Source: an uncultured Eubacteriales bacterium (GTDB taxonomy: Bacteria; Bacillota; Clostridia; Peptostreptococcales; Anaerovoracaceae). Taken from it: a DNA stretch of 46,415 nucleotides. Location of the stretch: NCBI GenBank assembly GCA_902801255.1, contig CADCHO010000024.1, positions 1 to 46,415 of the forward strand, in the 5' to 3' direction. The notes below the pieces were generated by a model. The model was not told the origin of the DNA and ran no database searches. It saw only the letters and a list, made by a program, of their open reading frames with translations. The position numbers were made by a program, and so were the translations under genes. Each line of letters opens with the position of its first letter. The stretch's first letter is position 1. This document shows positions 40,949 through 42,404 of this stretch, one piece after another.

Positions 40949-41317
40949 GACTTCCGTCCTTGAAGCCAGTTTTCACCATTTGGGACGGAAGTTTCATTCC
41001 ATGCGCTCTCACAGACTTCCGTCCTCAAGGCATGTTTTCGGCATTTGGGACGGAAGTTTCATTCCCTGCACTCTCACGGACTTCCGTCCCTGTGGCCCGT
41101 TTTCATAATTTGGAACGGAAGTTTCATTCCCTGCACTCTCATGGACTTCCGTCCTCAAGGCATGTTTTCGGCATTTAGGACGGAAGTTTCACTCCCTGCA
41201 CTCTCACGGACTTCCGTCCCAGGCACCCGTTTTCAGCATTTGGGACGGAAGTTTCACTCCCTGCACCTTAACAGACTTCCGTCCCAGGCGCCCGTTTTCA
41301 GCATTTGGGACGGAAGT
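40949..41317. repeat. Tandem array of six 65-bp inverted-repeat units
   Basis: The 627-bp gene-free stretch 40833-41459 holds this array. Forward arms GACTTCCGTCC start at 40949, 41014, 41079, 41144, 41209 and 41274, exactly 65 bp apart; each is followed after about 22 nt by the reverse arm (G)GGACGGAAGT (first 40982-40992, last 41307-41317). The loops keep a core GTTTTC...ATTT; the segments between units are like TTCATTCCCTGCACTCTCAC. Units 2 and 4 have identical loops, and units 5 and 6 nearly so. A degenerate reverse arm (GACAGCGGAGT) precedes the first unit. As 65 is not a multiple of three, no protein repeat is encoded. The rest of the gap shows nothing recognisable. Confidence 0.93.
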
Positions 41318-41459
41318 CGATCTGCGCAATTAATGTTATTGTGCCCATTTTATCTTGCATTTTATTATTTTTTAGGGCAGCCTCAAAAATAGTGCTTTTA
41401 CCGTTGAATTTAGTGCGTTTTCGGTTCGACATTTTTTTATATTTCATTATCATTATCAT

Positions 41460-42404
41460 ATGAATACCAGTCTGATACATGAAGCAAAAACAATATTGGC
41501 AGATCTCAGGAATACAAAACTCAGAATGGATAATCAGCTGTCTTCTCTTGACTCCTTTGCTGCCTGGAGACTCAAAAGGAACAGTGCTAAAAAATCGAAG
41601 CACTGCTATTACGATGCAATCCTTCCCGGCTCAAAGAAGAGTAAGTATCTGGGGAATGAATTAAATGAAGCGGTCCTGAATGTAAAAAGATATCGCTATG
41701 CTCAAAAGGCAGTTGAGATAATCGAAGCAGATATTGAGGTGCTGGAGCGCCTGATAAGCAACTACATCAGTCCGGACTATAACAATATTAACAGCCGTTT
41801 GCCCGCAACCTACCGGACAAGTCTGACCGCTGATAATTCAGACGAAGCTTTCAGCACTGTCCTTCCTCCGGATGCAGTCAAGTGGATACAGTATCTCAAA
41901 AAAGAGAAGGAAAAATACCCTCCTTATAAGCCAGAACAGCTCAAGTATGAAGCCCTGGATGGAACCAGAATGCGCTCCCTGGGAGAGGTAGTCATTGCAA
42001 ATTTTCTCCTGATGGCAGGAATCCCTTTTGTATATGAAGTGCCAATGAAAATCAACGGAGAGCTCGTGCTACCTGATTTCAGAATTCTGTCTTTGATAGA
42101 TTTGAAAACAGTGATAATCATTGAACACCAGGGAATGATTTTCTCTGAAGAATATCCATATAAATATATTCGCTCACTGAGACTTTATCTGCAAAGCGAC
42201 CTGGTCATTAATCAGAATCTGTTCTTTACTTTTACCGATGAAAAAGGAAGGTTTGATATCCGGCAACTAACAAGCATAATAAAGCAATTTGTGAAACCGT
42301 CTATTGACACGGAGATGGCGTGTTATTTGCAGGACATACCGGTCCATGACCGCATGACTGCCGGTACCTCTGACCTCGATTTTGATTCTTATGGAACCGC
42401 ATGA
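41460..42404 (+). CDS. PD-(D/E)XK nuclease-like protein
   Basis: A 314-residue soluble protein. The first ~110 residues are basic and helical with coiled-coil character (MNTSLIHEAKTILADL and KAVEIIEADIEVLERLISNY). The C-terminal half has the layout of a PD-(D/E)XK nuclease: E176 in RSLGEVVIANFLLMAGIPFVYE, D206 in VLPDFRIL, and E222-H-Q224 in VIIIEHQGM, where Q replaces the usual lysine. No helicase, methylase or specificity gene is adjacent. The ATG at 41460 has no Shine-Dalgarno site and lies 142 bp after the inverted-repeat array. The nuclease call rests on motif pattern only; the function is unknown. Confidence 0.6.
   Translation: MNTSLIHEAKTILADLRNTKLRMDNQLSSLDSFAAWRLKRNSAKKSKHCYYDAILPGSKKSKYLGNELNEAVLNVKRYRYAQKAVEIIEADIEVLERLISNYISPDYNNINSRLPATYRTSLTADNSDEAFSTVLPPDAVKWIQYLKKEKEKYPPYKPEQLKYEALDGTRMRSLGEVVIANFLLMAGIPFVYEVPMKINGELVLPDFRILSLIDLKTVIIIEHQGMIFSEEYPYKYIRSLRLYLQSDLVINQNLFFTFTDEKGRFDIRQLTSIIKQFVKPSIDTEMACYLQDIPVHDRMTAGTSDLDFDSYGTA

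Follow-up and report, generated by a model that had tools for sequence, protein, structure and literature searches.

The array of 65-bp repeats at positions 40949 to 41317 of the window (the whole 46,415-nucleotide stretch analysed, from an uncultured Eubacteriales bacterium) is probably the cognate recognition array of the nuclease-like protein encoded beside it, in a partnership that would work like that of RAYT transposases and REPINs with an unrelated enzyme. The pairing of gene and array is well supported by the comparison of homologous loci, and we infer that the predicted nuclease may bind the arms, cut the hairpins and spread the arrays. These findings suggest a protein-repeat partnership without earlier description, which would also exist in sister gut bacteria and is perhaps linked to DNA uptake. 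The array by itself would belong with the REP/BOX repeats; the paired nuclease would be the new part. A preliminary description of the same sequence overlooked the adjoining gene, most relatives of which are likewise accompanied by a hairpin array.

To our knowledge, RAYT transposases are the sole known dedicated enzyme partners of bacterial REP-type hairpins, and natural transformation has received little attention in the gut Clostridia concerned. An unrelated protein as second partner, with a separate arm at each locus, would offer natural protein-arm pairs for testing recognition, and the link to yraN-comM-dprA described below would tie repeat arrays to natural transformation. Literature searches, mostly without subscription papers, returned no description that we recognised of this repeat or of a PD-(D/E)XK-repeat pairing. 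The arm letters occur as text in 49 papers, and among the ten titles listed none concerned bacterial repeats. A Neisseria nuclease is said to occur with repeated hairpins and would be a possible parallel; a literature search for it returned nothing.

Structure of the array

The following elements were delimited in the array:

40949..41317, + strand: whole array (6 hairpin units, 5 linkers, period 65 bp)
40950..40992, + strand: hairpin unit 1 (43 bp)
41015..41057, + strand: hairpin unit 2 (core one base off unit 4)
41080..41122, + strand: hairpin unit 3
41145..41187, + strand: hairpin unit 4
41210..41252, + strand: hairpin unit 5 (core one base off unit 6)
41275..41317, + strand: hairpin unit 6
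40993..41014, + strand: 22-bp linker 1 of 5
41058-41079, 41123-41144, 41188-41209 and 41253-41274, + strand: remaining four 22-bp linkers

Tandem Repeats Finder (TRF) reported the array at 40949-41317 with a period of 65 and 5.7 copies, the units being non-identical (83-86% matches). Each unit consists of a 43-bp hairpin, ACTTCCGT-N27-ACGGAAGT, followed by a 22-bp linker, and the units are arranged head-to-tail at exactly 65 bp. Six exact matches to the hairpin pattern were present in the window, compared with a mean of 0 in 100 shuffled windows, and a chance origin was rejected. The six-fold 65-bp array and the alternating inverted arms of the preliminary description are thus real, as are the nearly shared loops that it noted between units 2/4 and 5/6; its near-even arm spacing of about 32.5 bp has to be corrected, since the arm starts step alternately by 36 and 29. 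It had also proposed two hairpin registers, and both are possible because unit 2 alone (-13.0 kcal/mol) and a single linker hairpin alone (-10.2 kcal/mol) each fold as single-stranded DNA. Its reading of the repeat as non-coding was judged right. An assembly artefact is unlikely, since identical unit geometry was found at six other loci of the same genome and in other assemblies. Elsewhere in the window, a 48-bp repeat (1725-1901, 3.7 copies) lies inside a minus-strand ORF of 880 aa whose product resembles a penicillin-binding protein and has a glycine-rich tail.

Distribution of the arm family

The source genome (G000, 2.24 Mb, 78.5% complete) contains seven loci with 8, 6, 5, 4, 3, 1 and 1 units, and all 20 exact matches to GACTTCCGTCC in this genome fall within five of them. 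A covariance model built from 53 units matched 16 of the 47 genomes of the genus; one of these, G002, holds a variant with arms GTTCCGTCA and was removed, leaving 15 genomes that carry the ACTTCCGT family. The array is thus not confined to a single assembly. In an order-wide sample of 198 genomes, three had a match, including the source genome and two weak cases. At least 114 contig pattern matches were obtained; most of them seem to be isolated and due to chance, for which a calculation predicts about 180.

Reading of 56 places yielded 31 arrays and 25 singletons, with 1-8 units each; the array counts leave out three weak single hits (own_C9a.1, G006_C45a.1 and G006_C57.1), and the flank consensus leaves out three orthologues (G065_C22, G004_C9b and G068_C30). 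Across the 56 places, the linker measured 22 bp in 93/96 cases and the hairpin 43 bp in 146/152, with a modal linker length of 22 bp in 30 of the 31 arrays. Array-consensus linkers differed by 47% between 30 arrays, compared with 73% when shuffled. Mismatches to the consensus affected 1.2% of positions in the arms and 22.8% in the cores, the arm rate being biased toward good arms by a unit finder that tolerated at most three arm mismatches. No overlap with any called ORF of at least 90 aa was found at 50 of the 56 places, and dispersed, short, intergenic palindromes, a feature of the REP/REPIN-RAYT kind, are therefore present here. Among the 48 places with both neighbours called, 10 lie between convergent genes.

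Left and right ends are weakly conserved in a subset of loci. Inspection of 50 left and 51 right flanks gave no consensus GTAG or CGTC end tag, and no general terminal inverted repeat was found (4 of 46 loci at p<0.05). At empty sites, the flanks are too diverged for a target duplication to be visible, which leaves an inserted element with a definable empty site unsupported. No Rfam family matched the array at its gathering score, and a scan of six loci with Rfam returned a tRNA and a SAM riboswitch and nothing else. A plasmid or phage element was rejected, there being no plasmid or phage match; as the preliminary description had supposed, the array matches no catalogued element in these collections. 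Viral copies of the repeat were likewise discounted: the 14 matches were single, and the family core occurred in none.

Several related observations were made. Genome G014 contains variant arrays (G014:C38, 43924-44102, locus L117; G014:C25, 16145-16248) with arms near TTCCGTCAT, the 27-nt spacing of the arm family, mostly a 65-bp step and unrelated cores. At L046 and L109, GGTTCGATCC-like fragments of tRNA 3' ends lie to the right of the hairpins, coming after the right end at some loci. In Rufibacter and Sabulibacter (L037, L038, L049, L052, L055, L057, L066, L067 and others), dispersed hairpins of the form CTATGGCGCGGAAGTTACTTCCGTGAC...GTCACGGAAGTAACTTCCGCGCCATAG with a variable loop share only arm letters with the window array.

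Evolution of the arrays

Cores in the same array differed by a distance of 0.18, compared with 0.33 for different arrays in a genome and 0.34 for different genomes, indicating that homogenisation is local; linkers differed by 0.19 within arrays. Imperfect arms made up 10 of 62 at array edges and 10 of 192 inside. At one orthologous site with both flanks alike, the source genome has 3 units, G065 has 6 and G006 has 5, and the site is empty in G003 and G004; two other sites differ between 1 and 7 units (source genome and G006; G017 and G065). The local expansion and contraction suggested in the preliminary description are borne out by these differences and by the core distances. The orthologue of the window array in G025 has 5 units and a truncated unit, with the same gene adjoining. 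At a single-unit locus compared between G003 and G004, the core differs at 8/27 positions and the arms at 0/16, while the 898-bp flank differs by about 1.4%; the simplest account is differential loss from an older array.

The nuclease-like gene

The gene lies 142 bp beyond the array:

41460..42404, + strand: nuclease-like gene, 314 aa (variable N-terminal half; C-terminal half read as PD-(D/E)XK-like)

Searches of Pfam and NCBIfam gave no match to the protein at the limits used, and no PDB entry matched it by sequence. Ten homologous genes, 28-81% identical, were obtained by comparing the 1,061 bp 3' of the array with the 47 genus genomes at the DNA level, where the best nine candidates at most were scored per genome, followed by tblastn. 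The family proteins are 261-314 aa long, and all 11 match the C-terminal end of the PADLOC PDC-S68 models (best 1.8e-24). Weak matches were found to a PHROG endonuclease (3 of 11 proteins, best 8e-4) and to HEAT_CxxC_PD-DEXK (2 of 11), and E176, D206, D214, K216 and E222 are invariant among the 11 aligned proteins. The C-terminal half is read as PD-(D/E)XK-like, with the motif assigned by eye and the PADLOC match in agreement. No viral relatives were found; among plasmids and phages, two records each matched the C-terminal half, weakly and in part.

The two halves of the protein diverge at different rates. In the three G070 paralogues, which have different arms, the C-terminal halves are 88-91% identical and the N-terminal halves 55-62%; the corresponding values for G002:C8 and G003:C17 are 83% and 63%. 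This pattern suggests that the N-terminal half may be the DNA reader of the arm.

Pairing of arrays with homologous genes

Arrays beside the homologues were sought with a strict detector, which required exact alternating 7-mers with at least four alternations within 600 bp of the gene. An array was detected beside 9 of 11 genes (that of the window and ten homologues; 12.9 kb searched), or 9 of 12 with a twelfth homologue. The background amounted to 5 arrays per 967 kb. Two of these lay in the remaining 109.6 kb of the same segments (one continuing the L349 array, the other resembling the G070:C3 family), two came from 98 other loci totalling 747 kb (128 minus 30 members or variants of the arm family, with L139 among those excluded), and one, adjoining a RAYT-like gene, came from 26 genus loci totalling 110 kb. 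In a separate control, 11 of 255 pieces contained an array, comprising nine arm-family loci, the G014 variant (L117) and another 7-mer (L139). The arms were as follows:

ACTTCCG: window, G025
TTCCGTC: G002:C142
ATAGTCC: G002:C8
TTGGTCCG: G003:C17
TGATTCC: G032
TTATATGG: G070:C19
TTGAGTG: G070:C3
GAGTGAC: G014

Eight different arms thus accompany the nine array-bearing genes. Hairpin spans at the nine loci were 43, 43, 40-41, 40, 38, 36-37, 39, 37 and 50; the span is steady to 1 bp at each locus, at 36-43 bp in 9 of 10 loci and 50 in one. Linkers are regular at seven of the nine loci and irregular at G032 and G070:C3, as also at G021. The detector failed at three of the 12 homologues (L341, L347 and L358); by eye, L341 has degenerate arms and L347 none. 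The twelfth homologue, G021:C43, was encountered incidentally, in a locus retrieved because of a chance pattern hit with no relation to it; over 252 residues it shares 25% identity with the G002:C8 protein. It was negative by the strict detector, but reading of the sequence shows three exact GTGTAC-N24-GTACAC hairpins, the last of which ends 16 bp before the gene; the pattern, chosen after this reading, occurs exactly three times in 11 kb and 0 times in 300 shuffles. The array lies downstream of the gene at four homologues, and about 140 bp upstream of it, ahead of a promoter-like box, in the window and G025.

Arm letters are shared by related proteins in two comparisons made by eye, ACTTCCGT/GTTCCGTC at 55% identity and AATAGTCC/TTGGTCCG at 73%. 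On the other hand, G070:C3 (TTGAGTG) and G070:C19 (TTATATGG) have unlike arms with proteins 70% identical, whereas G070:C3 and G014 (GAGTGAC) have GAGTG in common with proteins 33% identical, so that arm likeness, as judged from these sequences, does not always track protein likeness. The 12 loci are not independent draws, because the window and G025 as well as G002:C8 and G003:C17 are related and G070 contributes three paralogues. A close copy of the gene was found in two of the 15 genomes with ACTTCCGT hairpins (the source genome and G025) and not in the other 13, several of the 15 being more than 90% complete (DNA search, best nine candidates at most in each), and the gene occurs in the examined flank at 2 of the 56 arm-family places. 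In those 13 genomes, the arrays would therefore have persisted after loss of the gene or depend on a diverged copy of it.

Two further features were seen in G070. The paralogous loci L341, L342 and L343 (G070:C7, C3 and C19) have in common a region, within about 600 bp upstream of the nuclease genes, with many paired palindromes of the TGTGGATAA/TTATCCACA type, which may constitute another structured element. In addition, G070:C19 has a further array far from the first one (L343:440-696), whose arms are GTTGAGTGGA/TCCACTCAAC; it is similar to the array of the G070:C3 paralogue and is perhaps a dispersed copy of another arm family.

A promoter-like box upstream of the gene

Two elements were noted between array and gene:

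41403..41430, + strand: promoter-like box GTTGAATTTAGTGCGTTTTCGGTTCGAC, common to yraN-comM-dprA and PC4-type genes of sister genomes
beginning near 41383: upstream half copy of box GTTGAATTTAGTGCGTTTTCGGTTCGAC

The region preceding the window gene gave seven short matches, all of which are located upstream of PC4-type genes (four: G003:C19, G066, G012 and G002:C73), yraN-comM (two: G016 and G032) or a nuclease homologue (one: G003:C30). Pfam searches identified UPF0102, Mg_chelatase and DprA in the G016 operon (yraN, comM and dprA), DprA in the G032 operon and PC4 in two of the four PC4-type genes. With a matrix trained on the six non-nuclease sites alone, the stretch upstream of the window gene scored 38.0, at -57; among the 11 nuclease genes, eight had upstream scores of 16.2-38.3 and the other three had scores below 0. 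In 4,000 random 300-nt stretches, from a pool that includes boxes, the median was -1.1, the 95% point 6.0 and the 99% point 22.3, and four of the eight box scores (16.2-22.3) lie at or under this 99% point. The genes comM and dprA are natural-transformation genes. Because the box is common to their operon, we infer a competence-type regulon, to which the nuclease-like gene would belong.

Proposed mechanism and alternatives

In the proposed mechanism, arm binding would fall to the variable N-terminal half, while the PD-(D/E)XK-like C-terminal half would cleave the hairpin or cruciform DNA. As units are broken and the gaps between them repaired, arrays would grow, shrink and seed new sites, so that only units with intact arms would persist. 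Through the box common to yraN-comM-dprA, the protein would be made alongside natural-transformation proteins and thus be present when single-stranded DNA able to fold into hairpins is in the cell. A more specific version is tentative: array and gene may form a two-part element, in which a transformation-regulated PD-(D/E)XK nuclease with a fast-changing N-terminal domain would read its own arms in incoming or chromosomal single-stranded DNA and spread or police the arrays during uptake, in parallel to RAYT-REPIN.

An operator array, in which the protein or another regulator binds the arms and controls transcription of its own and other loci with no cutting or mobility, is unlikely. The position of the array upstream of gene and box in the window and G025, the G021 hairpins that stop just before the gene and the conservation of arms and spacing would suit such a function. 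It fits poorly with the downstream arrays at four homologues, the 10 of 48 places between convergent genes, the catalytic-type residues that are invariant in the 11 aligned proteins and the change from 1 to 7 units at orthologous sites.

It is rather improbable that the array acts at the RNA level, its transcribed hairpins serving as antitoxin, in the style of type III toxin-antitoxin systems, or as guide for the nuclease. The layout resembles such loci, in which a nuclease gene adjoins tandem RNA repeats; the complete array, as RNA, is predicted to fold much more stably than shuffled versions (z -9.25), hairpins oppose co-directional neighbours at 21 of 29 places (p 0.024, orthologues included), the covariation score was higher than in 500 of 500 shuffles, and wobbles at positions 12-14 favour the + strand. 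However, wobbles at positions 17-18 favour the other strand and those at position 10 neither (9 vs 11), changes on both sides of a pair are rarer than in shuffles (3 vs 5.4), and the strands fold about equally (-19.6 and -18.4). Wobbles, covariation and strand folding thus gave no consistent signal of strand-specific RNA selection; arrays occur on both sides of the gene, and the cores are not unique spacers.

A passive hairpin minisatellite near the gene by coincidence is very improbable. Slippage and unequal exchange would produce the local concerted evolution and the decayed outer arms, but would leave unexplained the nearly invariant arms across loci, the fixed lengths with diverged linkers and the arrays with other arms beside homologues.

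Mobilisation of REP/BIME repeats by a RAYT (Y1) transposase is hardly credible: the palindromes are dispersed, intergenic and alternating and Y1_Tnp occurs in 24 of the 47 genus genomes, but no Y1/HUH transposase was found in the source genome (78.5% complete), the hairpin-rich G006, G033 and G065 lack Y1_Tnp, 18 Y1 segments (19 of the 40 Y1 places listed) gave one model match, at the single-unit G004 locus, and it is the nuclease that accompanies the arrays with other arms. That locus lies about 1.3 kb from a short Y1 gene and is also present in G003, G065 and G068. The BIME-like look mentioned in the preliminary description therefore holds, while membership in REP/BIME does not, as no Y1/RAYT gene was found in the source genome. 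Separately, L176 (G025:C60, 2767-2816 and 3827-3851) has a RAYT-like gene with TAACGGGG...CCCCGTTA hairpins nearby and is a candidate REPtron of its own.

Comparison with known systems

The recognition array proposed here differs from guide arrays of the CRISPR/TIGR type, which have unique spacers, in its low within-array distances for cores (0.18) and linkers (0.19); the preliminary description was right to set CRISPR aside. Type III toxin-antitoxin loci are similar in that tandem repeats adjoin a nuclease gene, but in the present arrays the RNA signal is not consistently specific to one strand, the repeats may precede or follow the gene, and dispersed copies occur without it. The PDC-S68 candidate defence proteins of PADLOC share their C-terminal end with all 11 proteins; the two best models have 1,221 and 1,202 positions, and the family proteins, at 261-314 aa, match that end only.

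CGTC-tagged REPs (PMC3733652) are palindromic repeats without a dedicated transposase, as here, that end with CGTC and mostly form head-to-head dimers; in the present family, CGTC, if present, lies inside the arm and the units are head-to-tail. The pneumococcal BOX element (boxA-boxB(n)-boxC; PMC3049150) is a composite intergenic element with a variable count of tandem middle units, comparable to the 1-8 units of the window family. Here, the middle unit is an inverted-arm hairpin, a general terminal inverted repeat was not found and a candidate partner gene is present. REPIN/BIME elements with their RAYT (TnpA-REP; PMC3116915, PMC2817692) are short dispersed intergenic hairpins with conserved arms that also form tandem clusters and clusters beside the cognate gene, and the window family resembles them in each of these respects. 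It differs in that the GTAG tag was not seen, the unit is strictly 65 bp and the partner is a PD-(D/E)XK-like protein without a Y1 match.
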